Shown: positions 2,338 through 21,008 of the stretch, in pieces
How the letters are laid out: every line of letters starts with the position of its first letter
Position numbering within the stretch: the first letter of the stretch is position 1
DNA from: a virus
IMG/VR virus record: IMGVR_UViG_3300042691_003558
Coordinates: 1 to 21,008 of that record
DNA: 21,008 nt
Direction: 5' to 3' (one strand)
Position numbers and translations under genes: made by a program
The notes under the pieces: model-generated
Seen by the model: only the letters and a program-made list of their open reading frames with translations
Database searches by the model: none
What the model was told of the DNA's origin: nothing

Positions 2338-2747
2338 TTCCATTAGCAGGACTCCTAGAGATTGGCGGTAAGCTGGTAGACAAACTAATTCCTGATCCTG
2401 AAGCTAAAGCTCGGGCACAGTTGGAGTTGGCTAAGCTTGCTCAAGACGGTGAGTTGGCTAAGATTGCCAATGACACCAAGCTGTATGAGACAGAGCAAAA
2501 CAACCTCTCAGCACGGCATACTGCTGACATGGCCTCTGACTCATGGCTCAGTAAGAATATCCGTCCTATGACCCTTGTAGCCATCTTCGTGGGCTACTTT
2601 GTGTTTGCAATGATGAGTGCCTTTGACCTTGAAGCTAATGAAGCTTATGTGACGTTGCTTGGTCAGTGGGGTATGTTGGTTATGTCTTTCTACTTTGGTG
2701 GTCGTACCTTAGAGAAGATTATTGATATGAAGGCTAAGAAACCATGA
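2334..2747 (+). CDS. Holin of the 3-TM / gene-transfer-release type, 137 aa
   Basis: The start overlaps the previous stop as ATGA. The N-terminal half is amphipathic and charged (KLVDKLIPDPEAKARAQLEL, then a Lys/Glu-rich helix and SARHTADMASDSWLSKNIRP). The C-terminal half has two clear hydrophobic segments (about residues 77-95, MTLVAIFVGYFVFAMMSAF, and 107-124, LLGQWGMLVMSFYFGGR), then a basic tail EKIIDMKAKKP. The WLSKNIRPMT...FYFGGRTLEKI pattern is characteristic of phage holins of the GTA_holin_3TM type (established family knowledge). Such proteins permeabilise the inner membrane to release or activate the endolysin. The gene overlaps the endolysin gene by four bases, the usual holin-endolysin order. 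Confidence 0.78.
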   Translation: MIPLAGLLEIGGKLVDKLIPDPEAKARAQLELAKLAQDGELAKIANDTKLYETEQNNLSARHTADMASDSWLSKNIRPMTLVAIFVGYFVFAMMSAFDLEANEAYVTLLGQWGMLVMSFYFGGRTLEKIIDMKAKKP

Positions 2748-3202
2748 AACTATCTACAAACTTCTCTGTTGCTGAACTCTCTAAGTCTGAGGCTGCTACC
2801 CGACAAGGTTTGGACAACACCCCTAGCATGGAGGTGATTGACAGCCTTCAAGCACTGGTGGATAACGTCTTGCAACCTTTGCGTGACAAACTTGGCCCTA
2901 TCGTTGTGACCTCTGGCTATCGTAGTCCTGCGGTTAATAAGGCCATTGGTGGTTCTGCTACCTCTGACCACTGCAAAGGCCAAGCTGCTGATATTGAAGT
3001 GTTGAATATGGATAACAAGGCACTGGCTGAGTACATTCGTGACAACATGAAGTTTACACAGCTTATCCTTGAATTCTACCGTAAGGGTGTGGCAGATAGT
3101 GGATGGGTTCATGTGTCTTACGATGCTAAGAATCTGAAGAACCAAGTCCTGACAGCAGTCAAGGTTGACAGTAAGACTGTTTATCACAACGGTATTCAAT
3201 AA
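2744..3202 (+). CDS. Endolysin: M15 family zinc D-Ala-D-Ala carboxy/endopeptidase
   Basis: 152 residues, starting in an ATGA overlap with the holin. The N-terminus (NFSVAELSKSEAATRQGLDN) matches the opening of the Peptidase_M15_3 family. The zinc site is visible: SDHCKGQAADIEV gives His76 and Asp83, and WVHVSY gives His123, matching the SxHxxGxAxD ... WxH pattern of M15 enzymes. VVTSGYRSPAVN (about 54-65) is the usual preceding strand-turn. The enzyme hydrolyses peptide cross-links or stem peptides of peptidoglycan. There is no signal peptide, so release depends on the holin encoded immediately upstream. The size is typical for the family and the domain appears complete. Confidence 0.9.
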   Translation: MKLSTNFSVAELSKSEAATRQGLDNTPSMEVIDSLQALVDNVLQPLRDKLGPIVVTSGYRSPAVNKAIGGSATSDHCKGQAADIEVLNMDNKALAEYIRDNMKFTQLILEFYRKGVADSGWVHVSYDAKNLKNQVLTAVKVDSKTVYHNGIQ

Positions 3203-3210
3203 GAGGTCTT

Positions 3211-3999
3211 ATGGAACAACAAGATTCATTTCAAGCTGCTATTGATTATCTAATAGCAAACAGGAAGAAGCCTGTCTTCACTAACAGAGGCTTGTTCACT
3301 GAACCTGCCCAAGAGACTAAGCCTAGCGTGGTGAATGGTCTGTTTGGTGACGAATACATCAAGCGTAACCAAGGAGGTGGTGAGAGCAGCTTTGAGCAAC
3401 CGTTCACTGGTAACCCCTTCTCCTCTCCTAGAAACGGTTTGTCTTCTCTGACTGACGCAGCCCGTTATCGAGACCTAGCATCTGGTATCAGGAATAATTC
3501 TAATGCTGTTGGCGGGGTTACTAGCTTGTTGACAGGTAATCCTGTGGTGGGTGTCCTAGCTCGTTATGGCCTTCCTAAAGTGTTTGATTACTTGGGTGAT
3601 CGCGCTTATAATCAGTATGGACAAGAGATGCAACAAATTGGTGGTGAGTTGTTTAACCCTACCAATCCTAACCTTGCTGCTCTCGCTTATAACGACCCTA
3701 ACTACGATTCTTATCGTAGTGACTTCCCTGCTGGTGGTGTGACTTACGCTCCCGGTTCTCCAGCTACTTTCTACAACGATCCTAACTACGATGCTTATCG
3801 TAGTGACGTTAACGTAGCTGTTGGTGGGCCTATTAACACCTCTCTTATTCAAGGTACGTCCTTCGACGGTGGTCAACCGGGGGTAGGTATTGACAGTGGT
3901 AACTTTGACTTCGGCGGTGGTTATGGTACTTCCTTCGATGGCGGTAGTTCTTACTCCAACCAAGACCAAGCAGACCGTGACGTAGGCAACATGAGCTAA
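3211..3999 (+). CDS. Gly/Asn/Tyr-rich protein with internal repeats, probable virion component, 262 aa
   Basis: AGAGG precedes the ATG. I do not recognise the family. The N-terminal third is polar; a hydrophobic stretch around residues 97-125 (NAVGGVTSLLTGNPVVGVLA) is followed by a low-complexity Gly/Asn/Tyr/Ser-rich C-terminus. Two repeats are visible in the protein: NDPNYDSYRSD and NDPNYDAYRSD, 28 residues apart, and GTSFDGG occurs twice. The DNA under the first pair is 31/33 identical between copies. Composition and position between the endolysin and tail genes suggest a structural or fibre-associated protein, but nothing in the sequence proves it. There are no catalytic motifs and no signal peptide. 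Confidence 0.6.
   Translation: MEQQDSFQAAIDYLIANRKKPVFTNRGLFTEPAQETKPSVVNGLFGDEYIKRNQGGGESSFEQPFTGNPFSSPRNGLSSLTDAARYRDLASGIRNNSNAVGGVTSLLTGNPVVGVLARYGLPKVFDYLGDRAYNQYGQEMQQIGGELFNPTNPNLAALAYNDPNYDSYRSDFPAGGVTYAPGSPATFYNDPNYDAYRSDVNVAVGGPINTSLIQGTSFDGGQPGVGIDSGNFDFGGGYGTSFDGGSSYSNQDQADRDVGNMS
3691..3807 (+). repeat. Two direct repeats (33 bp), each containing an 8-bp inverted repeat
   Basis: Copies at 3691-3723 and 3775-3807 differ at 2 of 33 positions and are 84 bases (28 codons) apart, in frame. Each contains a perfect 8-bp inverted repeat ACTACGAT/ATCGTAGT with a 4-base loop (3701-3720 loop TCTT; 3785-3804 loop GCTT). The repeat lies inside the coding region and encodes NYDSYRS/NYDAYRS. 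Confidence 0.85.
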
Positions 4000-4005
4000 A
4001 CCACC

Positions 4006-4356
4006 ATGAAACACTCCATCGGGATAGACATCCCTGCCAACACACTTACTGAGATGTTCACTGTCCCTAATGGCTATGTGGCTGATGTGAGTATGGTGTT
4101 TGTAACCAACAACGGTACAGGCAACAAACACGTATCAGTTTACTGGCAGCATGAGCATGACTCTAATCACAAGATATACATCCTGAAGGAAGCTACTGTT
4201 AACGCTAAGACTTATGTGCAGTTCACCAACGGTTCTGTTGTCTTTAAGTCTGGTGACTCAATGAAGGTATTGACTGAGGCTGGAGCCACGGTAGCTGTAA
4301 TTGTTACCTTTGACCTACGTAAAGAGCCTCCTTTGTATACCTTCCCTAACGAATAA
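4006..4356 (+). CDS. Small beta-rich phage protein of unknown function, 116 aa
   Basis: It begins six bases after the previous stop, with a weak CCACC leader. The product looks like a single beta-sandwich domain, with alternating strands such as TEMFTVPNGYVADVSMVFVT, HVSVYWQHEH, TYVQFTNGSVVFKSGDSMKV and ATVAVIVTFDL. Proteins with this pattern (MFTVPxGY...V.V.W.....I...Y....G.VVF..GD...V) are common near the tail genes of marine podoviruses and are generally listed as hypothetical or minor structural proteins. Decoration or tail-accessory function is a guess from context. The length appears complete; there is no signal peptide or membrane segment. Confidence 0.65.
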   Translation: MKHSIGIDIPANTLTEMFTVPNGYVADVSMVFVTNNGTGNKHVSVYWQHEHDSNHKIYILKEATVNAKTYVQFTNGSVVFKSGDSMKVLTEAGATVAVIVTFDLRKEPPLYTFPNE

Positions 4357-4370
4357 GGAAAGAGAACAGC

Positions 4371-5033
4371 ATGACCTATCTACAACTTGTTAACATGGTG
4401 TTGCGTAGGCTTCGTGAGAACGAGGTTACCACACTTCAGGGCGCGGCCCGACAAAACACATATCCTCGGCTGGTAGGGGATTTCATCAACGATGCCAAGC
4501 GGATGGTTGAACAAGCATGGGACTGGTCTTCTTTGCGTACCACTCAGACAGTGACCACTCAGGCTAATGTCTTTAACTATGTACTGACTGGCTCTAACAA
4601 CCGCTTTGAGGTCTTGAACGTCCTGAACGACACCTCTAACTGGTTTATGCACTATCAGACTGCCTCTTGGTTTGACCAAGCCTATTTGTTGGATGGGTCT
4701 GTTAATACTGGCAGCCCTGCCTACTACAGCTTCAACGGTGTAGACGCTAACGGAGACACTCAGGTGGATGTCTACCCTAAGCCTGACGGTGTGTATACCC
4801 TTCGGTTTAACGTGGTACAGCGCCGCCCTGACCTTTCTGCGGATACCGACACGGTTATCGTCCCCTACCGCCCTATCGTCCTTCTAGCTCAGGCTATGGC
4901 GATTGAGGAGCGAGGTGAAGACGGAGGTAACGCAAGTCAGTGGGCATACCAACAAGCACAAGCAGCACTGAGCGATGAGATTGCTCTTGACTCAGCCCGA
5001 CACCCTGAAGAATTGATTTGGCGTGAAGTATGA
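4371..5033 (+). CDS. Tail tubular protein A / head-tail adaptor (T7 gp11-like)
   Basis: TAAGGA at the previous stop provides the ribosome site. The 220-residue product opens with MTYLQLVNMVLRRLRENEV, followed by FINDAKRMVEQAWDWSSL and RFEVLNVLND, the pattern of T7 gp11 / P22 gp4-type adaptor proteins (T7 gp11 is about 196 residues). These form a dodecameric ring under the portal to which the nozzle binds. The C-terminal helix RPIVLLAQAMAIEERGEDGG plus the Ala/Gln-rich AYQQAQAALSDEIALDSARH is also typical. The stop overlaps the next start (ATGA), and the partner gene is the nozzle, matching the gp11-gp12 order of T7-like phages. Confidence 0.88.
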   Translation: MTYLQLVNMVLRRLRENEVTTLQGAARQNTYPRLVGDFINDAKRMVEQAWDWSSLRTTQTVTTQANVFNYVLTGSNNRFEVLNVLNDTSNWFMHYQTASWFDQAYLLDGSVNTGSPAYYSFNGVDANGDTQVDVYPKPDGVYTLRFNVVQRRPDLSADTDTVIVPYRPIVLLAQAMAIEERGEDGGNASQWAYQQAQAALSDEIALDSARHPEELIWREV

Positions 5034-6571
5034 AACAATTACAAAGCATCTCTGTGGTAGCTCCGGGCTTCTCCGGGTTGAACACACAAGACAGCAGTGT
5101 CTCCCTGCCTAACAGCTTCTCGCTGGCTGCTGATAATTGTGTCATTGATAAATATGGTCGTCTAGGGGCACGTAAGGGCTGGACGATGCAGACAACAGAC
5201 GGTGATGATGAACTTGAAGGAGAGAGTATTCAATTTCTTCATGAGCACACCAATGCTGACAACACATTGACCGTCCTTAGTGGTGGTAATAATAAAATAT
5301 TTAAAAATGGTGTGTCTGGGGTATTGACAGATGTGACCCCAATGAGTTATACTATTACTGCTAACTATTGGAAAGCAGCAACTATCAACGATGTTGCTTT
5401 GATTGTTCAAGAAGACCATCCACCTTTGATTTATTCTGAGGCAGCAAGCCCAGAGTGTCAAGAGCTAACCGATTACAAGGTTCATACTCCTTCCTATGCG
5501 TCTAGCTACCCTAACGATGTTTTAGCTGCTTATGGACGGTTCTGGGTGCACGATGGATCGACTGTCTACTGGTCTACCGATATTGCAGATACCAACTTTC
5601 CTGCCTTTGCAGGGGGAACCAGCGGTACTCTGAACATTGCCTCTGTCTTGCCTAAGAACGTAGACCGTATTGTGGCTCTGGCAGCACACAATGATTTCTT
5701 GATTATCTTCTGTGAGTATAACACGGTTATCTACAATGGGGCTATCAACCCTATCAGTGACTCCTTTGCTCTGGCAGATGTGATTGACGGTGTTGGTTGT
5801 CTTGCTCGGGATTCAGTTCAGCATACAGGCACTGACCTGTTGTTCCTGTCCCACGAAGGTGTGCGGAGCTTGGGTCGAGTGGTTCAAGAGAAGTCCCTGC
5901 CTCAGCGTGATTTGACCCGTAATGTCCGAGATGACCTTTCTGGTTATGTAACTGCTGAAACTGACTACAACAGCATCAAGAGTGTGTACTCTGAGAAAGA
6001 AGCCTTCTATCTCTTGTCTTTCCCTTCCCTGAGTACTGTGTACTGTTTGGATATGCGAAGAGCATTGGATGATGGTTCTGCAAGGGTAACACGGTGGGTG
6101 AGTCATGCAATTACTGCTTTTACCCGCACCCGTGACCAATCGGTCTATCTAGGTAAACCAGACGGTATCGGTAAATATTCAGGGTATCAGGACAGAGGTG
6201 TGTCGTACCGTATGCGGTATGCCAGTACCCACATTGACTTCCAAGACAGCACCATGACTAAGGTTCTTAAACGAATCAATGCTGTGGTGATTGGGGGTAA
6301 GGGACAACCTTTCACGATTCGCTCGGGTACAGATTATGGTGGTGCTAACTTCTTCTACGATTTGGAAATCCAAGACTCAGGCTTACTGGCATGGGGAATT
6401 GGTGAATGGGGTGTTAATGAGTGGAGTGCAGGTATCAACGTGGAGAAAGTCCACACCCCTGCGAATGGCTCTGGTAAGACCATTCAAATCTTCTTTGAAG
6501 CAACCATCAATGGAGCAGAATTGAGTGTTCAACGACTAGACCTGTTCGTTAAGACGGGAAGGATTAATTAA
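5030..6571 (+). CDS. Tail tubular protein B / tail nozzle (T7 gp12- or P22 gp10-like)
   Basis: 513 residues, beginning in an ATGA overlap with the adaptor gene. The N-terminal SVVAPGFSGLNTQDSSVSLP and DNCVIDKYGRLGARKGW are hallmark segments of podovirus tail nozzle proteins. The rest is beta-propeller-like, with repeats such as YGRFWVHDGSTVYWSTD, DFLIIFCEYNTVIYNG and DLLFLSHEGVRSLGR. It is shorter than T7 gp12 (794) and closer to P22 gp10 (about 470). It forms the hexameric tip of the short tail that carries the fibres and conducts DNA. The C-terminal segment LQRLDLFVKTGRIN-like (residues about 500-513) completes the fold. No truncation is seen. Confidence 0.88.
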   Translation: MKQLQSISVVAPGFSGLNTQDSSVSLPNSFSLAADNCVIDKYGRLGARKGWTMQTTDGDDELEGESIQFLHEHTNADNTLTVLSGGNNKIFKNGVSGVLTDVTPMSYTITANYWKAATINDVALIVQEDHPPLIYSEAASPECQELTDYKVHTPSYASSYPNDVLAAYGRFWVHDGSTVYWSTDIADTNFPAFAGGTSGTLNIASVLPKNVDRIVALAAHNDFLIIFCEYNTVIYNGAINPISDSFALADVIDGVGCLARDSVQHTGTDLLFLSHEGVRSLGRVVQEKSLPQRDLTRNVRDDLSGYVTAETDYNSIKSVYSEKEAFYLLSFPSLSTVYCLDMRRALDDGSARVTRWVSHAITAFTRTRDQSVYLGKPDGIGKYSGYQDRGVSYRMRYASTHIDFQDSTMTKVLKRINAVVIGGKGQPFTIRSGTDYGGANFFYDLEIQDSGLLAWGIGEWGVNEWSAGINVEKVHTPANGSGKTIQIFFEATINGAELSVQRLDLFVKTGRIN

Positions 6572-11182: not shown

Positions 11183-11204
11183 TAAGGTAATTTTTTTTAC
11201 CTTA
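11183..11204 (-). promoter_or_regulatory. 8-bp hairpin overlapping the nrdJ stop codon
   Basis: A perfect TAAGGTAA / TTACCTTA inverted repeat with a 6-base T loop (A6 on the transcript) includes the TAA stop of nrdJ at 11202-11204. It has no U tract after it, so it is not a classic terminator. It could be a processing or stability element, or could modulate translation of the following 52-aa gene, whose ribosome site starts just past the stem. Confidence 0.55.
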
Positions 11205-13121
11205 GCGAACTGGGCAAGCGCCTGTAGCACACTCAGCATCGTCCAGACCAATATCCAGCGAACTGATGCTGGTAATCAATCGGGTCTTAGCCACCAACTC
11301 GTCATACTGCTCTTTCGTAATCTCTTCCAGAGGAGCTTGTTTGAACCCATGCTCATTGTGCAGCAGGAACGACAAACTCTTATGGTTGGTCTTGTAGTTC
11401 TTCTTCAAGTATTTCTTGATCTCAGGCAACTCCTCCATACGATAGTACACAGTACAACTCACACTGTTATCACTCCACTCAGACTGCAACCACTTGATAG
11501 TCTCCAACTGGTCAAGAGCAGTCATGTCTTTAGCCAACACCGCATTGTCAGGGTGTCGGAAGGGGAAAGACACAACCATTGTTGAACGATCTTCTGAACC
11601 ATCAAAGTTCTGCTGATACTCCACAGGGTATCCATGATCTCGACAAGTCTGAACCAACGGGTGATTGGCACTGATACGAATACGACGAATCATGTATCGG
11701 GCATAGGCTGGATGACAACCCGGAGTCACACCGGGGAGCAACGACAGCGTACCAGAAGGCTTGACCGTGGTAATCTTAATCGACTCAGGGAAACCATTTT
11801 TAGCAGAATACTCCTTATCAAACTCACGCAACTGTGTATACACATCCTTCAACCATGTCTTCTGTTCCTCAGACGACTGCAAGACACCAGTGATACCGAT
11901 ACCCATACGCATATTCTTGTGGACAATCTCCTCAGTGACCTTCAGGTGGAAGGGCAGAGCCAGAGAGTGTTTGTTCACTCGGTACAGTAGTTTGGCTACA
12001 TCAGCCAGTTCTTCCTTACTTGTAATGTTCGGCAGGTAAATCTCTGCCAAGCAGCAAGTCTCTCCGTCTGCTAGGCTCTGTTCCGCACAAGGATTATATC
12101 CTTGAACCTCCGGGTCAGGGTATTGTGTCTCTCCCAAGCGTCCAACTTTGCGGGACAGCTTGAGATTGATGAGTCCATAAGGCTCTCCCTTACCTTCGTA
12201 ACCATCCCAGAAGAAATCATGTAAGTCTCCGATGTCGTGGCAGACGACTGAGTTATTAGACATTGCTCTCCACGAGGGAATATTACCCAAGTCCCATCGC
12301 TTCGCAAGTAGGTATTCAACATCGTCAGCATCTCCAATAGCAATCTGAGCACTACGGCGCACGTTACCTGCAACGACAACAGCACCGATAATGTTCATGA
12401 TGTCCAAGCAATCAACTGGACGGAGCCACTTACCTGCTCGTTTCTCCAGAATCTCGCCAATCTTACCGATACCCCACACCAAGTCCTCTGGGCCACTAGC
12501 AGTACCACCAAAGCCCTTGATAGGAGCGCCTTTAGAACGAATCAACTGTGTTGAGTAGCTGAACGTCTGCTTGCCACTCTTATGGGCTAGAAAGGCCGCT
12601 TTGAGCGTTTTGCCGAGTAGTGCCACCCAGCCCTCACGAGAGTCAGGAACAATAAAGTCAGCGTCAGCAGCATCAAGACGGGTAGGCCGAACAAAATTCT
12701 CATTGACAGGAGGAAGTTTCTCCACATTCTGCTTTTGAATATTGTAACCAACTCCAGACCCCAACATCAACAAATCCATTGCCCAAGTAAACGGCTCCAC
12801 GGGAGAGTTCACCACCTTAAATGCACAGTTCTGAAGGCTTGCCCCACCCAGTTTACCCACTGTGTCTGTACCCAACTGCCACAGGAATCGACCTGCAACA
12901 GTACCCTTCAACTCCAGCATATAACGCTTCAGACGCTGCTCTTCATCCAAGGTAAACCCACAGCCCAACTGCTTACGAGCACCTTCGACAACACGGTTGA
13001 TGGTGTCTTCAAACTCTTCGGTAGGGCTATCAGCATCATTCTCGTTCAAGCGGCGAGAATAGGTACGCTTGTAGGTCAGGTAACCAACGGAGCTGAACGG
13101 GGTAACAATTTCATTCGTCAT
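11202..13121 (-). CDS. nrdJ: Adenosylcobalamin-dependent (class II) ribonucleotide reductase
   Basis: This 639-aa protein reduces ribonucleotides to deoxyribonucleotides using a B12-derived radical, without oxygen or a second subunit. Landmarks match the monomeric RTPR type: LQNCAF gives the first redox Cys (C99); NPCAEQ gives Asn343, the radical Cys345 and Glu347; and ADGETC gives the partner Cys356, eleven residues later as in the Lactobacillus enzyme (C408/C419). VKPSGTLSLLPGVTPGCHP is the phosphate-binding loop. The C-terminus CATGACPVR carries the shuttle cysteine pair that reloads the active site. It is about 100 residues shorter than the Lactobacillus reference (739). AAAGGA precedes the ATG, which overlaps the stop region of the 54-aa gene. 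No thioredoxin gene is in the window, so a host or off-window reductant is implied. Confidence 0.93.
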   Translation of the reverse strand: MTNEIVTPFSSVGYLTYKRTYSRRLNENDADSPTEEFEDTINRVVEGARKQLGCGFTLDEEQRLKRYMLELKGTVAGRFLWQLGTDTVGKLGGASLQNCAFKVVNSPVEPFTWAMDLLMLGSGVGYNIQKQNVEKLPPVNENFVRPTRLDAADADFIVPDSREGWVALLGKTLKAAFLAHKSGKQTFSYSTQLIRSKGAPIKGFGGTASGPEDLVWGIGKIGEILEKRAGKWLRPVDCLDIMNIIGAVVVAGNVRRSAQIAIGDADDVEYLLAKRWDLGNIPSWRAMSNNSVVCHDIGDLHDFFWDGYEGKGEPYGLINLKLSRKVGRLGETQYPDPEVQGYNPCAEQSLADGETCCLAEIYLPNITSKEELADVAKLLYRVNKHSLALPFHLKVTEEIVHKNMRMGIGITGVLQSSEEQKTWLKDVYTQLREFDKEYSAKNGFPESIKITTVKPSGTLSLLPGVTPGCHPAYARYMIRRIRISANHPLVQTCRDHGYPVEYQQNFDGSEDRSTMVVSFPFRHPDNAVLAKDMTALDQLETIKWLQSEWSDNSVSCTVYYRMEELPEIKKYLKKNYKTNHKSLSFLLHNEHGFKQAPLEEITKEQYDELVAKTRLITSISSLDIGLDDAECATGACPVR

Positions 13122-14758: not shown

Positions 14759-15433
14759 TTATTCACCATACTGCATTAATGCAACCCAAGACACTGGGTA
14801 AAGCTTCTTAGCCTCAGCGTCAATCATCCTTGCAATCTCCTGTGTTTCCTTCTGCGTGTGAGGGTCTAGCCGCAGCTTACACATCTTAGCAAAAGCAAAC
14901 AAGGTTCCACTCCAAATCCATTCAGTCATCGTGTTCTGAGGCAACACCATACGAGCTTGCTCAGGACATACACCATTCTTCATCAAGGTGTAATAAGCAT
15001 CTAAAGCATACTGTGTAGTCATCTTAGCAATCTCTACCTGAGAACCTTGATCGACAAGCAGACCGCCGCTGCCTTGCTTCACGTTCTCAGCAGATTGACG
15101 CCACCCTTCAGGGAAGTAGACTTCAGGTTCATCAGACACGTACCTACGACTAACCTCATTCCAAGGCAAGTATTCGTGCTTCACCAACTGACGAGCTACG
15201 AAGATTGGAGCCTTGACTCGGAAAGACATAAAGCAGTGATTGAAGGGACTCTTGTGCTTATGCTTTGCAAGATACTTAATCAGCTTGGCGTCCTTCTCAG
15301 GTAACTCCATGCAGATTGTATCTGTATCAGACCAAGAAGACTGCTTTGCGAATGACACCCTTGCTGCGTTAACAACACTGAGATCATCCCCACACCAGTC
15401 CAAGAGTTCTACACTTTGTTTAGCTGTCTTCAT
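14759..15433 (-). CDS. thyX: Flavin-dependent thymidylate synthase ThyX, variant motif
   Basis: 224 residues. The enzyme converts dUMP to dTMP using FAD/NADPH and methylene-tetrahydrofolate. The family core is present but altered: canonical RHRxxSxNExSxRY reads KHEYLPWNEVSRRY (K85, H86, E87, P90, N92, E93, S95, R97, Y98). Other family segments fit: KHKHKSPFNHC near residues 58-67, ARMVLPQNTMTEW, and the dUMP/folate region CKLRLDPHTQKETQEIA. KH-x-WNEVSRRY forms occur in other phage ThyX proteins, so it is probably active. The start overlaps the 60-aa gene by 14 bases and lacks a clear Shine-Dalgarno, implying coupled translation. It pairs with NrdJ for DNA precursor supply. Confidence 0.9.
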   Translation of the reverse strand: MKTAKQSVELLDWCGDDLSVVNAARVSFAKQSSWSDTDTICMELPEKDAKLIKYLAKHKHKSPFNHCFMSFRVKAPIFVARQLVKHEYLPWNEVSRRYVSDEPEVYFPEGWRQSAENVKQGSGGLLVDQGSQVEIAKMTTQYALDAYYTLMKNGVCPEQARMVLPQNTMTEWIWSGTLFAFAKMCKLRLDPHTQKETQEIARMIDAEAKKLYPVSWVALMQYGE

Positions 15434-15936: not shown

Positions 15937-16259
15937 TTAACCCCCGATTGAGGACGAGACATCTTACTCTCGTTGTACTGATGCAAGAACGCCCCGAACG
16001 TATCAACATACTTCTCATCATGGTTATTCTCACCCATAGTGAACAGGATGGCGTGAACCAACTCGTGATAGAAAGTAGTCTCCTTTGACTGCTTCGAGAG
16101 TTCCTTACGGATACGGATTGTGTGTTCCTCTGGATAACACATCCCTTGGTCGTAGAACCCTTCAGTCTCAATCACCTTCCAGTAACAACCCGCTAGCTTG
16201 AAGGCACAGGGGATGTTTGGGGAAAGCTGTACATTTGACCCTTGTGTCGCCTTAACCAT
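15933..16259 (-). CDS. HExxH zincin (ImmA/IrrE- or SprT-like metalloprotease candidate), 108 aa
   Basis: 108 residues with the zinc protease core FYHELVHAILFTMG (HELVH at about 65-69) and a downstream acidic helix HDEKYVDTFGAFLHQ that may supply the third ligand. A strand IRIRKELSKQS precedes it, as in other phage zincins. The AGGACA upstream of the ATG is well spaced, so the start at 16259 is accepted even though it lies 67 bases inside the end of the exonuclease gene, in another frame. The substrate is unknown. Roles reported for related proteins include cleavage of repressors (ImmA/IrrE) or of DNA-protein cross-links (SprT); either is only a hypothesis here. The domain is small but appears whole. 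Confidence 0.7.
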   Translation of the reverse strand: MVKATQGSNVQLSPNIPCAFKLAGCYWKVIETEGFYDQGMCYPEEHTIRIRKELSKQSKETTFYHELVHAILFTMGENNHDEKYVDTFGAFLHQYNESKMSRPQSGVK

Positions 16260-16903
16260 AGAAGTTGTCCTGATTCAAGTAACCGTTCATGTGATACTCC
16301 CTTATCTTCGTATGCAGCCTTTACAGCCTCATACATCTCTAACTCGGTCTTGGCTTCTTTCAGTATCTTCTCTGCCTTCTTAGGCCCGATACCGTCTAAA
16401 CCCAAGATGTTATCTATTCTGTCCCCAGTTAATAGCTGAGTGTAGAAGCTACGGTATCCTTCTTCCTCCGTAACATAATACTTCTCATCCTTAACAGGGT
16501 TGTAGTGCCAGCCCACAAGCTGGTTAAGGTCTTTATCCACATGGACAATCCACCCACCGTCAACACTAGCCTCAGCCACTGCATCGTCAGCCTCGTCACC
16601 ATCAGTCATTACAGCCCCTAGACGCAACAAGTGTTCCCTGAGCACCTCATAGTGTGGAGGTCGCTCTAAGTCCTTCCTATTGCCCTTATAAGGCACTGTA
16701 GTGGCTAACTCATACCTGTAGTTGCCTTTGCCAGTGATCCAAGCCTTGTAGTCATCAGCCTTGAGCTTCTCGTACACAATATCAAACAGTAGCTTAGTGA
16801 GCCGACTCTTGGCGATCTCTTCGCTTGCTTCTCTATCTGCAAACCCGATTCGATACACCAAAAAGTCAGCATCAACCAGAGCCAGTTTAGGCTCTTCTGT
16901 CAT
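16193..16903 (-). CDS. 5'-3' exonuclease / flap endonuclease (T7 gp6-like)
   Basis: 236 residues. The PIN/FEN nuclease acidic clusters are in order: LVDADFLVYR (D11, D13), DGDEADDAVA (D103, E104, D106, D107), VDKDLNQLV (D123, D125) and TGDRIDNILGL (D161, D164). Then comes the helix-3-turn-helix DNA-binding segment GLDGIGPKKAEKIL (about 168-181). The enzyme degrades DNA 5'-3' and removes flaps or primers, and in T7 also digests host DNA. The start joins the SSB stop as TAATG, so it is coupled to SSB. The C-terminus, GQLLWLRRHKGQMYSF and a Ser/Pro tail, overlaps the zincin gene. Confidence 0.88.
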   Translation of the reverse strand: MTEEPKLALVDADFLVYRIGFADREASEEIAKSRLTKLLFDIVYEKLKADDYKAWITGKGNYRYELATTVPYKGNRKDLERPPHYEVLREHLLRLGAVMTDGDEADDAVAEASVDGGWIVHVDKDLNQLVGWHYNPVKDEKYYVTEEEGYRSFYTQLLTGDRIDNILGLDGIGPKKAEKILKEAKTELEMYEAVKAAYEDKGVSHERLLESGQLLWLRRHKGQMYSFPQTSPVPSS

Positions 16904-17381: not shown

Positions 17382-17573
17382 TTAGTGTAACACACCCGAA
17401 TTGGGTTTGTCAAGCACTTTATTAATAATATCTTCCATTTGTACCTCAGTTTCTTTTAGACAACTAAGGAACACTGCATACGCCTCACCTACGGAGATTT
17501 CCCCTTCAAAGTCTACCTTCAAGGTGTCCTCCCCTACCTCAATGATAATCTTCCTCAGTGCGTCTGTCGCCAT
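17382..17573 (-). CDS. Small protein of unknown function, 63 aa
   Basis: AGGAAAATC precedes the ATG, which lies 19 bases inside the end of the polymerase palm gene. The product is MATDALRKIIIEVGEDTLKV then DFEGEISVGEAYAVFLSCLK, with a Glu-rich C-terminal helix, and looks like a small alpha/beta protein. I recognise no family. It is placed between polymerase and SSB and carries the -35 element of the SSB promoter in its last codons. Confidence 0.6.
   Translation of the reverse strand: MATDALRKIIIEVGEDTLKVDFEGEISVGEAYAVFLSCLKETEVQMEDIINKVLDKPNSGVLH
17384..17413 (-). promoter_or_regulatory. Sigma70-type promoter before SSB
   Basis: On the - strand a perfect -35 TTGACA (17408-17413), an 18-base spacer and -10 TACACT (17384-17389, 4 of 6) precede SSB. 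Transcription would start near 17377. It overlaps the last codons of the 63-aa gene. It is the clearest host-type promoter in the window, and would give SSB and the downstream genes a second transcript. Confidence 0.6.
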
Positions 17574-18460
17574 GATTTTCCTATCTTGTATTCACCATCC
17601 AAAGGACAGCGAAGGTTAAAGTGTTCCCCTGCTGCCCTGATAGCTACCACAGCCAGTTTCCCTACTGCTTCAGCATCATCAGGATGACATTCTATCTGCC
17701 ATTCGTCGTGAACATTTACCACAAACTTAGCACGTAGTTTGTTGCATCTAATGTCCTTCTCCAGCACCACCAAGGCTTGTTTCATGACCACCGCCCCTGC
17801 GCCTTGAAGTAGGCTATTGAGTGCCGAATGTTCGGAACGTACCCAAATCTTTCTACCATCAAGCCCCGGTACAAAGCCCTTACCCGCATACTTGGCAACC
17901 GTATCTCGTAGACGCTGGAGCGCGGGAGTCGCTCTAAGGAAGGCAGTGGTAAGTCTGCGACCCTCTTTAGCCGATCCACCAACAATAGAACCGATCTTGT
18001 CCGGCCCTGCACCATAGAGGAAGGCGTAGATAAACGTCTTCGCCTGATCCCTCGTTTGTAGACCAGCAGCTTTTTGGTTCTTCGTATGGACATCCGTTCC
18101 GTCCTTACTTGATCCCTCAACGACAGTCTTGACATAATCATCATCTTTCATGTAGTGAGCTAACATCCGTAGCTCAAGACCAGAGGCATCAGCCCCTACC
18201 AACACATAACCATCGTCCACAGTCCAGCACTCTCGACACTCAGGCCCATACAGTGACCCAGAGTTAGGAATCTGAGCCATGTTAGGACTACTGTGTGTCA
18301 TCCTGCCTGTCACTGCTCCATTGGTCATAACCCTGCCATGCACACGACCATCAGAACCTACACAGTCAAACCAAGACTTGATCTGAGAGATACGCTTTTG
18401 CAAGAGTAGGTAGTCTTTAATCAGTTCCGCTGTCTGCTTTAGCTCTTGTTTGTTTTTCAC
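17555..18460 (-). CDS. Family A DNA polymerase, C-terminal half (palm and fingers)
   Basis: 301 residues, starting at a GTG with a near-perfect AAGGAGG five bases upstream, so it is translated on its own. All polymerase motifs are present: VTGRMTHSSPNMAQIPN (about 50-66), motif A VGADASGLELRML (D91), motif B RDQAKTFIYAFLYG (R137, K141, Y145, Y149) and motif C VNVHDEWQIE (H251, D252, E253). The C-terminal GKSWRQTH ends in His, as in T7 gp5. The residue equivalent to E. coli Pol I position 762 is Tyr145, as in T7. It lacks the exonuclease and most of the thumb, which are encoded separately at 18740-19594. The first clear homology to whole polymerases begins at ELIKDYLLLQKR (about 12-23). The two halves must associate to work. 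Confidence 0.92.
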   Translation of the reverse strand: MKNKQELKQTAELIKDYLLLQKRISQIKSWFDCVGSDGRVHGRVMTNGAVTGRMTHSSPNMAQIPNSGSLYGPECRECWTVDDGYVLVGADASGLELRMLAHYMKDDDYVKTVVEGSSKDGTDVHTKNQKAAGLQTRDQAKTFIYAFLYGAGPDKIGSIVGGSAKEGRRLTTAFLRATPALQRLRDTVAKYAGKGFVPGLDGRKIWVRSEHSALNSLLQGAGAVVMKQALVVLEKDIRCNKLRAKFVVNVHDEWQIECHPDDAEAVGKLAVVAIRAAGEHFNLRCPLDGEYKIGKSWRQTH

Positions 18461-18743
18461 AGTACCCTCCTTCTTTCGAGTCTTTTGTTTTCATCCGAAA
18501 TACAGGCTCAAAACCATTAGGAGCGCCCTCTGGATATTCTTTTTTCCAGTAAAAGTGCCCAAGCCCTGTGTCGTAATAAGCGAAATGTTCGTATTCCACT
18601 TCACGATAAAGTTCTACCTCTAACCCTCTTAAAGCAGCCTCTGCTGCTCTTGAGGGAAGTGAGTATCCTTTAAGTTCAACAACAAGATTTTGAATATGTT
18701 TTAACATAGTGTTTATTTTTTGTTCTTGAATCTCTTTATTCAT
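18417..18743 (-). CDS. Uncharacterised 108-aa ORF between the two polymerase halves
   Basis: It begins in an ATGA overlap with the stop of the exonuclease/thumb gene (AAGGAG eight bases upstream) and ends 44 bases inside the palm gene in another frame. The N-terminus is helical (MNKEIQEQKINTMLKHIQNL, then VVELKGYSLPSRAAEAAL), the middle is aromatic and acidic (YREVEYEHFAYYDTGLGHFY, then WKKEYPEGAPNG), and the C-terminus is basic and polar. No HNH, GIY-YIG, LAGLIDADG or VSR motif is visible, so it does not look like a homing endonuclease. The first part is very AT-rich: 14 G/C in the 60 bases 18661-18720, against about half in the polymerase genes. It may be a remnant or a degenerate insert, or a co-factor bridging the polymerase halves. 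Confidence 0.65.
   Translation of the reverse strand: MNKEIQEQKINTMLKHIQNLVVELKGYSLPSRAAEAALRGLEVELYREVEYEHFAYYDTGLGHFYWKKEYPEGAPNGFEPVFRMKTKDSKEGGYCEKQTRAKADSGTD
18466..18472 (-). promoter_or_regulatory. Strong Shine-Dalgarno for the polymerase palm gene
   Basis: AAGGAGG on the - strand, five bases before the GTG at 18460, lies inside the 108-aa ORF. It decides the GTG start and shows that the polymerase half has its own translation start rather than depending on frameshifting or splicing. Confidence 0.8.
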
Positions 18744-19594
18744 TTGTCACACTCCTTAATAATTTCATCTAACACAGCCTCATCCACAATCACCTGACCC
18801 TTATCCGTATGCTTCTTAGGCCGCCAGCCAAGCTCCATCAGCTTTTCAGCGATTTGTTGTCTTGAACCGGGATTGAAAGTAACAACGGAGTCTTTGAGTC
18901 GCTTTCCAGTCTTTTCTGAGATTCGCTCAAGGGTGACTGGAGGCCACCTCTGCTGCATCTGCTCATAAATTCCGTCCAGCTTCCCTTGAATGTCAACCAA
19001 CAGATTTGTTGCATATACCTGATCCAGTTTAAAGCCATTCTTTTCCTGCTTCGAGATGATAGCAGCTACCTTGTGTTCTAACTCAACGGATTGAGTAGAA
19101 AACTCTTTCTCATTGAGTAATTTAACCAAGTGGTGATACAACACCTCTAGCACATCAACGTCCCTGACACAGTAATGATCCATCAATGCTTCGTGTGGCT
19201 CATCAAACTCCAGTAGCTTAGGTGTGTCCTTCTCGCTACGGTTAGTCATCCAAAGCCATACAGCTCGATAGTCAATCTTCTGTAGTCCAAGCCTTTCTCC
19301 CCATGCCTCTAGGCTGTGTCCGTTCTCTAGACTCGGATCTAGTAGGCGGCTTACAATCAGTGTATCGAATACCTGATTCCCATGAATCTTCGTATTCCAA
19401 AGCCTGTTCAACACTGGAAAATCGAAGTTGATGCCGTTGTGAGCGACTATCAACGTAGTGTCCTTTAAATACTCCACGAGGGGCTTTGCTTGTTTCCATA
19501 ACTTTGTCTCACCTGTGTCAATGTCTTTAGTCACCACCACCCAAATGTGGTCATGCTTCGTGTTGGTTTCAATATCCAAGAGGATACGTTTCAT
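18740..19594 (-). CDS. Family A DNA polymerase, N-terminal half (3'-5' exonuclease and part of thumb)
   Basis: 284 residues. The DnaQ-type proofreading site is intact: Exo I LLDIET (D7, E9), Exo II AHNGINFDFPVLNRL (D58) and Exo III HYCVRDVDVLE (Y141, D145). Then come thumb segments VELEHKVAAIISKQEKNGFK and FNPGSRQQIAEKLMELGW, with VIVDEAVLDEI near the end. It stops there, at the point where complete phage polymerases continue into the second thumb helix and the palm, which here start the separate gene at 18460. AAAGGATTGAG precedes the ATG. Together the two products add up to about 585 residues, a normal size for phage family A polymerases, so little is lost at the break. Confidence 0.92.
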   Translation of the reverse strand: MKRILLDIETNTKHDHIWVVVTKDIDTGETKLWKQAKPLVEYLKDTTLIVAHNGINFDFPVLNRLWNTKIHGNQVFDTLIVSRLLDPSLENGHSLEAWGERLGLQKIDYRAVWLWMTNRSEKDTPKLLEFDEPHEALMDHYCVRDVDVLEVLYHHLVKLLNEKEFSTQSVELEHKVAAIISKQEKNGFKLDQVYATNLLVDIQGKLDGIYEQMQQRWPPVTLERISEKTGKRLKDSVVTFNPGSRQQIAEKLMELGWRPKKHTDKGQVIVDEAVLDEIIKECDK

Positions 19595-19606
19595 CTCAAT
19601 CCTTTG

Positions 19607-19831: not shown

Positions 19832-20004
19832 ACGTCAAACTCCTCATAGGACATAAACTCTTTCTGTCGCTGTGTATCCATCTCTGAGTAACTCTCAAAA
19901 TGGTTCTCACCGCAGCACTGGAAGCTGTGTTTAACATCATCACAGTAGCAGCAGTATTGGGTACTGTCGTTCATCAGTTCTTCGTGTCGTTCTTGCTCAG
20001 TCAT
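19828..20004 (-). CDS. Cys-rich small protein, probable zinc binder, 58 aa
   Basis: The ATG overlaps the helicase stop (ATGA), with AAAGGAAG upstream. The product has the cluster YCCYCDD followed by KHSFQCCGENHFESYSEMD: five Cys plus nearby His that could hold a zinc ion (CC-x-C ... CC-x3-H). Short proteins with the CCYCDD...CCGExHFxxYxEMD pattern are recurrent in T7-like phage genomes and have no assigned function. The C-terminus is polar and acidic. Position just after the helicase suggests a replication-linked role, but this is unproven. Confidence 0.7.
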   Translation of the reverse strand: MTEQERHEELMNDSTQYCCYCDDVKHSFQCCGENHFESYSEMDTQRQKEFMSYEEFDV

Positions 20005-21008
20005 AGCACTTCTTCCTTTTGTTCAATCATTCGACCTGTCATCTTATCATACTTCAGGCCACAGGCAGGGCCAGTGTAACCGTTGTAACGATTCTTGGCA
20101 ACAGCTACCTTGGTAGTGTGTCGCTCCTCTTCGTTCTCTGCCATGCTGTTACGCTCCAATGTTATCACAGCATCGCTCAGTTGTGCAATAGCACCTGATC
20201 CACGTAGTTGTGATAAAGAGACACTACCACCATCTTCGTGGCCTGAGTTGCCTTGTGGCCTACGGAGGTGAGACACACAGATCAAAGTCACTTCCAGCTC
20301 CTGTACCAGTGTACGGAGCTTGGTCATCATGTTGTCTATAGCTTTCCGTTCATCACCCACATCTTGACCAGATACAACAATGCTAATGTGATCCAAGAAT
20401 ACAACACGACAATCACACGCTTTAGCCATGTATCTGATCCGGTTGGCGATGTTGTCCACATCACTACTACCAAAATGGTCAAACAGATAAATACGATTGC
20501 TTCCAAGTGTAGCATCAAACGAATCCTTTAGTTCCTTTTCAGTCACAGGTGTGTCCGGGAGATGCAACAGTTTGTTTGCATGGAGACTCATAATACTCCG
20601 TGCTGTCTTACGTGTTGACTCTTCCAAAAACAACCCACCAATGTTCCATGTTGTCGTCTTGAGCAGGTGATACAGAATCTCCCGCAAGAACTGACTCTTA
20701 CCCAACCCGCTTCCGGCAGTAACCGTGATTAGCTCGGCAGGACGGAAACCATAAAGCAGCTTATTCAAGCCTTCCCACGGGTACTGTGCCTCTGCCACAG
20801 GTTCAGGTTTAATGACTTCCTCCCACAGCGAGGCAGCATTGATGATACCGTCAGGAATGTAGACCTCAGCCTTCCACCACTCGTTAACGAACTCCTTTGA
20901 AGCCCCTGCCTTGAGATAGTCACAGGCATCCTTAAAACCTGCCTTGTGCTGCACGATCTTGGCCTTCTGACCGAACACCTCAGCCACCTCTTTAGCAGCC
21001 TTCTTACC
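20001..21008 (-). CDS. T7 gp4-like primase-helicase, C-terminal part (cut by right edge)
   Basis: The reading frame is open to the right edge: GKKAAKE precedes a GTG at 20987 that is therefore unlikely to be the start. The first visible segment, GKKAAKEVAEVF...HKAGFKDACDYLKAG, matches the end of the TOPRIM primase domain. Then follows a helicase domain: Walker A TVTAGSGLGKSQF (P-loop), EESTRKTARS with the catalytic Glu, Walker B CRVVFLDHISIVVSG, the motif 3/4 region VTLICVSHLRRPQG, and the Gln/Arg-finger region VSLSQLRGSGAIAQLSDAVI. This is a RecA-like DnaB/gp4 hexameric helicase that unwinds DNA 5'-3' and, in the full protein, makes primers. The zinc-binding and catalytic primase parts lie beyond the edge. 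It overlaps the 58-aa gene by four bases. Confidence 0.93.
   Translation of the reverse strand, partial: GKKAAKEVAEVFGQKAKIVQHKAGFKDACDYLKAGASKEFVNEWWKAEVYIPDGIINAASLWEEVIKPEPVAEAQYPWEGLNKLLYGFRPAELITVTAGSGLGKSQFLREILYHLLKTTTWNIGGLFLEESTRKTARSIMSLHANKLLHLPDTPVTEKELKDSFDATLGSNRIYLFDHFGSSDVDNIANRIRYMAKACDCRVVFLDHISIVVSGQDVGDERKAIDNMMTKLRTLVQELEVTLICVSHLRRPQGNSGHEDGGSVSLSQLRGSGAIAQLSDAVITLERNSMAENEEERHTTKVAVAKNRYNGYTGPACGLKYDKMTGRMIEQKEEVL

Follow-up and report, generated by a model that had tools for sequence, protein, structure and literature searches.

How can a replicative DNA polymerase that is encoded as two separate open reading frames (ORFs) be a working enzyme, and what divided it? This question is raised by the window, a stretch of 21,008 nucleotides of virus DNA, for which an earlier note had described a family A DNA polymerase (PolA) split into two separately translated genes. 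The two halves are indeed present on the minus strand, with all their motifs, according to Pfam, PHROG and motif reading. The picture of a functional-looking split enzyme is favored by these motifs, by the ribosome-binding sites and by signs of purifying selection, but a third gene, of 108 aa, had been overlooked, and this insert is what splits the polymerase. The three ORFs are flanked by a helicase gene (20001-20987) and a 5′-3′ exonuclease gene (16193-16903), and the features of the locus, all on the minus strand, are as follows:

19600-19605, minus: Shine-Dalgarno-like AAAGGA of the exonuclease half, read directly
18740-19594, minus: exonuclease and proximal thumb half of PolA, 284 aa, chain 1
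18743-18769, minus: recoded tail of the exonuclease half, DEIIKECDK, kept among split alleles
18752-18758, minus: Shine-Dalgarno TAAGGAG of the cargo gene, within that tail
18417-18743, minus: cargo ORF inserted between the halves, 108 aa, without recognisable family
18466-18472, minus: Shine-Dalgarno AAGGAGG of the polymerase half, within the cargo gene
17555-18460, minus: distal thumb and palm/fingers half of PolA, 301 aa, GTG start, chain 2
18419-18460, minus: recoded head of the polymerase half, VKNKQELKQTAELI, kept among split alleles
18167-18190, minus: polymerase motif A, DASGLELR (residues 91-98 of the half)
18011-18052, minus: polymerase motif B, RDQAKTFIYAFLYG (residues 137-150)
17696-17710, minus: polymerase motif C, HDEWQ (residues 251-255)
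18417-18772, minus: 356-nt segment standing in place of 38 nt of the intact allele of a relative, L082 (positions 1-2236 and 2593-5046 of the window's reverse complement align to L082 at 96-97%)

The cargo ORF overlaps both neighbors: its ATG runs into the stop codon of the exonuclease half, and it shares its final 44 nt with the beginning of the polymerase half. A further ORF of 63 aa (17382-17573) shares 19 nt with the end of the polymerase half, and several relatives likewise have a small ORF after polA. The same module also holds, at 11202-13121 and 14759-15433, a ribonucleotide reductase with a B12-dependent insertion domain (Pfam) and a ThyX-like ORF.

The two halves and their translation

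The exonuclease half matches the RNase H/exonuclease model PF13482 (PF01612 falls slightly below the Pfam cut-off) and PHROG 17, DNA polymerase, at 6.6e-50. Its three motifs are DIET (residues 7-10), HNGINFD (52-58) and DHYCVRD (139-145), and D7, E9, D58, Y141 and D145 are invariant in the alignment of relatives. The polymerase half matches PF00476 at 3.5e-45 and, again, PHROG 17. It had been claimed that the halves together equal one normal phage PolA broken in the thumb, and both points agree with the alignment to T7 gp5 (chain 2ajq_A, full-length numbering), in which T7 residues 332-372 correspond to exonuclease-half residues 238-278 and T7 residues 380-703 to polymerase-half residues 8-300. 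As the first half reaches T7 residue 372 and the second resumes at 380, nothing is missing at the break, and the two make up one complete enzyme. When the intact L082 polymerase is modeled with AlphaFold (mean pLDDT 88.5), the break maps to residues 278-280, a loop that connects helices 272-277 and 281-305. The best PDB match of this model is T7 polymerase (1x9m, E=2e-41, TM 0.85 by query length), so that a T7-like fold is found through the intact relative. The locus also has the 3′-5′ exonuclease motifs I-III with their catalytic acidic residues and the polymerase motifs A, B and C that are expected of a T7-type family A polymerase. Two other characters of this type are missing. On the one hand, the thioredoxin-binding thumb loop is shortened, T7 residues 253 and 332 being bridged by only about 28 residues of the exonuclease half (209-238); the large loop of T7 polymerase is located in this part of the thumb. 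On the other hand, there is no single polypeptide, as two ORFs, a stop, a new start and a whole gene take its place.

The dN/dS values against L082 are 0.16 for the exonuclease half and 0.08 for the polymerase half, and the value against another intact relative, L081, is 0.07 for the exonuclease half, all from pairs that span the branch after the split plus other branches; these values indicate that both halves are under purifying selection. They are difficult to reconcile with a decaying pseudogene whose function has been taken over by a host or other polymerase, as is the retention of every catalytic residue. Although the window is only a 21-kb fragment of the phage, and a nearly identical contig (L099) carries a further frame-breaking deletion in its exonuclease half, long open frames are kept in every split allele despite wide divergence between lineages. 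In addition, the larger split contigs (42, 37, 28, 27 and 24 kb) have a single family A palm region each and, thus, no second polymerase of this family. We consequently regard decay as very unlikely.

Translation of the pieces would be initiated separately. The Shine-Dalgarno sites attributed to the halves in the earlier note, AAAGGA for the exonuclease half and AAGGAGG with a GTG start for the polymerase half, can both be read in the sequence, the latter five bases 5′ of the GTG. The ATG of the cargo has TAAGGAG eight bases upstream, encoded within the tail of the exonuclease half. This tail is recoded in all split alleles considered, where it reads DEIIKECDK, DEIIKECMK, DEIIKECSK, DQIIKECSQ, DQIIKECDK, DKIIKDCGENE, DRIVKECDG, DRLIKDCS, DRLIKDCL, DLIIKEN or EEIIERYSK (consensus approximately DxIIK[E/D]C), and it usually encodes the Shine-Dalgarno site of the cargo. 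The intact relatives have SELKYP, VALDFP, EGLDFP, SKLSYP or SKINIP at this position. Most heads of the polymerase halves of split alleles share K-x-E-L-K followed by A-x-L-I. Judging by sequence, such similar ends could reflect either one cassette that moved between lineages or convergence imposed by the needs of a ribosome-binding site and of a helix end. Among the split alleles examined beyond the window, a clear Shine-Dalgarno site is absent from most polymerase halves and, consequently, coupled re-initiation must be assumed there.

The junction and the empty site

The same junction is present in a second contig, L099, which is 99.7-99.9% identical to the window, and another, L026, continues the polymerase half at 99.9%. 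L099 lacks 175 nt within its exonuclease half (L099:5246-5248), which breaks the frame, and is otherwise nearly identical to the window; either assembly damage or a real defective copy may explain this deletion. The reverse situation, an empty site, is provided by L082, whose polymerase is unbroken and which matches the window at 96-97% identity to either side of the break, over about 4.7 kb, with 38 nt where the window has 356 nt (18417-18772). The polymerase is also intact in the close relatives L081, L001 and L002. The intact relatives differ in length just upstream of the break, which suggests that this region tolerates change.

The earlier note had held unbroken close relatives, coupled to an assembly error, to speak against its reading. 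Such relatives do exist, as just described, but an error is contradicted by the second assembly. In fact, an assembly or sequencing artefact, which might be suspected in a virus record derived from a metagenome and surrounded by unbroken relatives, would also have to account for ten further inserts at the same site and for the same cargo recovered twice in L023/L150, in L310/L312 and also in L055/L056, and we consider it next to impossible.

Searches of Pfam, PHROGs, INPHARED phages and IMG/VR recovered nothing similar to the cargo of the window except in a contig of the same phage, and the single-sequence structure model of this cargo has a pLDDT of 46. That it is a real protein, without relatives, is suggested by its ORF, its ribosome-binding site and its overlaps with both neighbors.

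One site, different inserts

A split T7-type PolA had been considered unusual. This now requires qualification, as at least 11 inserts are found at the same site in related phages and a split PolA has been published, though at another site (PMC10580990). The metagenome search for the same split that had been suggested shows that it recurs in related IMG/VR phages, where 11 different inserts occupy one site in 15 contigs, the window included; at least 10 are thus other than that of the window. They comprise three C5-methyltransferases, one PAPS reductase, two HNH endonucleases and five genes without assigned function:

Window and L099: 108 aa, orphan
L154: 75 aa
L137: 142 aa
L092: about 186 aa, PHROG 12600
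L023 and L150: about 242 aa
L309, L055 with L056, and L064: C5 cytosine methyltransferases
L310 with L312: PAPS reductase
L299 and L355: HNH-type endonucleases, L355 being assigned by its 39% identity to L299

The inserts of L309 and L310/L312 were found by the split-head pattern and are therefore a biased sample, while the others also surfaced in plain homology searches. Polymerase halves of the L155 type that lie at contig ends (L311, L331) lack their upstream side and were left uncounted. Most other hits to the tail pattern (such as L136, L139, L141-L148, L151 and L152) were dropped, as tblastn showed that they are not polymerase pairs, and the apparent splits of L126, L127-L130, L167, L173, L175 and L317 turned out to be an intron, large in-frame or unaligned stretches, or frameshifts. 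Elsewhere in the polA of close relatives, only frameshifts or a deletion interrupt the gene (L077, L317, L099); that of L077 (4127-5858), in the exonuclease part of an otherwise intact polA, is probably a sequencing error. The split-head pattern is not found in bacterial genomes.

The intact form is the majority, being observed in 113 of the 127 IMG/VR relatives that have both halves in our first set, while 9 of the 221 non-redundant complete pairs of the last set are split. As intact genes are the rule in the family, we infer that this state is ancestral. The flanks of the window, L154, L137, L299, L055 and L064 are 93-98% identical to intact relatives. For instance, at the nucleotide level the polymerase half of L064 is 98.1% identical to L234 and that of L154 96.2% to L157, and L299 is 98.0% identical to L305 in its exonuclease half and 98.5% identical to L306 in its polymerase half. 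The flanks of L092 are less similar to intact relatives (88.6 and 91.2%), and the sample holds no close intact relative of L023 and L310. On trees of either half, the nine split tips need nine changes, as many as shuffled labels do, although such counts do not separate gain from loss. On these comparisons of sequence, the splits are recent and scattered across lineages.

The inserts, which span about 220 to 840 nt, are almost wholly coding and unrelated in sequence. These properties bear on two explanations in which a full-length polymerase would still be made. In the first, the enzyme would be restored by splicing, the insert being an intron or another element that removes itself. Phage polA genes often carry introns (PMC10580990), and a group I intron occurs in this gene of a distant relative, L126. 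However, the Rfam search that detected the L126 intron, which thus served as a positive control, had no hit at the junctions of the window, L023, L055, L064 or L092. Coding, unrelated inserts as short as about 220 nt do not fit an intron well, and neither do the stop codon that the exonuclease half has of its own, within the conserved recoded residues, and the start codon of the polymerase half. Splicing has, therefore, only a slight probability. The intron of L126 (RF00028, 1262-1636) is followed by a 310-aa GIY-YIG-like ORF, the whole extending over L126:1262-2563, and its site differs from that of the split in the window.

The second explanation is that ribosomal frameshifting or bypassing, for which gene 60 of T4 is a precedent, fuses the halves during translation. 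Overlapping stop and start codons (ATGA) at the joints would be in keeping with such an event. By contrast, the relative frame of the halves is the same in some alleles and different in L154, L137, L023, L310 and L355, the insert lengths vary as described, and the polymerase half of the window has a strong Shine-Dalgarno site and a start codon of its own, which together make fusion extremely improbable.

A proposed passenger slot and its known counterparts

We think it probable, from the sequence evidence, that a T7-type PolA is made here as two chains from one operon, divided by a loop-inserted cassette in what would be a repeatedly reoccupied accessory slot. The overlaps and Shine-Dalgarno sites suggest that one transcript would be translated into a chain with the exonuclease and first part of the thumb, a small passenger, and a chain with the palm and fingers, and the two large chains would fold together non-covalently into a normal, presumably active, enzyme. 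Here we lean on precedents: the two parts of gp43 from Aeromonas phage 25 purify together and have activity, and NrdA of phage Aeh1 retains full activity although split (PMC2988022); by analogy, we infer that the halves of the window assemble. The empty-site allele points to insertion of a short cassette, at the loop between two thumb helices, as the cause of the split. This cassette consists of the recoded tail, doubling as the ribosome-binding site of the passenger, the passenger itself, and the recoded head with its own start. The same site has been taken repeatedly by different passengers (methyltransferases, PAPS reductase, HNH endonucleases, small unknowns), which suggests that it is an extra slot for accessory genes exchanged between replication genes.

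As for its origin, the first split was likely the work of a freestanding HNH homing endonuclease, which other genes later replaced. Uninterrupted alleles, as such an origin implies, are those of L082, L081, L001 and L002. The insert of the window has no nuclease or other family match in Pfam or PHROG, and an endonuclease is found at the split in the relatives L299 and L355, that is, in only two of the 11 inserts. We give even chances to the proposal that a mobile, cargo-swapping cassette is specific for this one PolA loop, its conserved ends traveling between phage lineages and delivering accessory genes, including DNA methyltransferases, without destroying the polymerase. Homologues of several cargo genes occur elsewhere around polA: those of the methyltransferases directly behind the intact gene in L010 and L009, those of the PAPS reductase upstream of it in L160 and L222, and fragments of the cargo of L154 and L137, also upstream, in L164. 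The slot thus seems to draw on accessory genes that already lie between the replication genes of these phages. The slot methyltransferases (L055:2937-3704; L064:4318-5004; the L309 cargo) have similar ends and different middles, at 45-59% identity, as if their target-recognition parts had been exchanged.

If correct, an essential replicative polymerase serves as a landing site, where one loop tolerates cutting and the gap carries accessory genes, some of them (several) expected to modify DNA. There would also be a naturally occurring set of two-chain polymerases, in most cases alongside a near-identical intact twin, in which the cost and mechanism of splitting are directly measurable, and a ready-made split site for a T7-type polymerase. 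Additionally, polymerase ORFs annotated as “truncated” in metagenomes may each represent one half of a functional enzyme.

Division of phage polymerases has precedents (T4-like gp43; PolA of MEP401/402), but a recurrent same-site cargo slot appears to be undescribed; within our incomplete coverage of the literature, no paper mentions a thumb-loop site that is repeatedly occupied by exchangeable cargo. In the OM43 phages MEP401 and MEP402 (Zobellviridae; OP830906, OP830907), PolA is split with a small ORF between the parts, as it is in most of their group of metagenomic relatives, and the authors left an intron open (PMC10580990). As in the window, a family A polymerase lies in two ORFs around a small ORF of no known function. 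However, their gene is broken immediately ahead of motif A (gp15 begins with MILNADAKALEW) instead of in the thumb loop, and the 77-aa cargo is another one; we therefore rejected these phages as examples of the same split. Gene 43 of Aeromonas phages 25 and 44RR also encodes a replicative polymerase as two chains with a mobile gene or spacer between them, but it is of family B, either a Seg endonuclease gene or an untranslated spacer takes the place of the cargo, and no cargo series has been reported there (PMC2988022). In nrdA/mobE of Aeh1, an essential gene is likewise cut by a gene insertion, its pieces cooperate, and overlapping or coupled translation has been discussed; by contrast, the enzyme is different and there is one cargo type, the freestanding homing endonuclease mobE (PMC2988022).

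Among cultured phages, Roseobacter phage CRP-5 (MK613347) has its polymerase divided near the same thumb position, into gp12 and gp13. Unlike in the window, no gene is inserted, and the two ORFs, which are in different frames, have 35 nt in common (L133:3866-3900); a split gene, a real frameshift or a sequencing error are all possible. The closest isolate relatives are Pelagibacter phages HTVC103P and HTVC104P, 58% identical in the polymerase half and 38-39% in the exonuclease half, in which the polymerase is unbroken as far as the match shows, the regions corresponding to the halves lying 15 nt apart in one gene.
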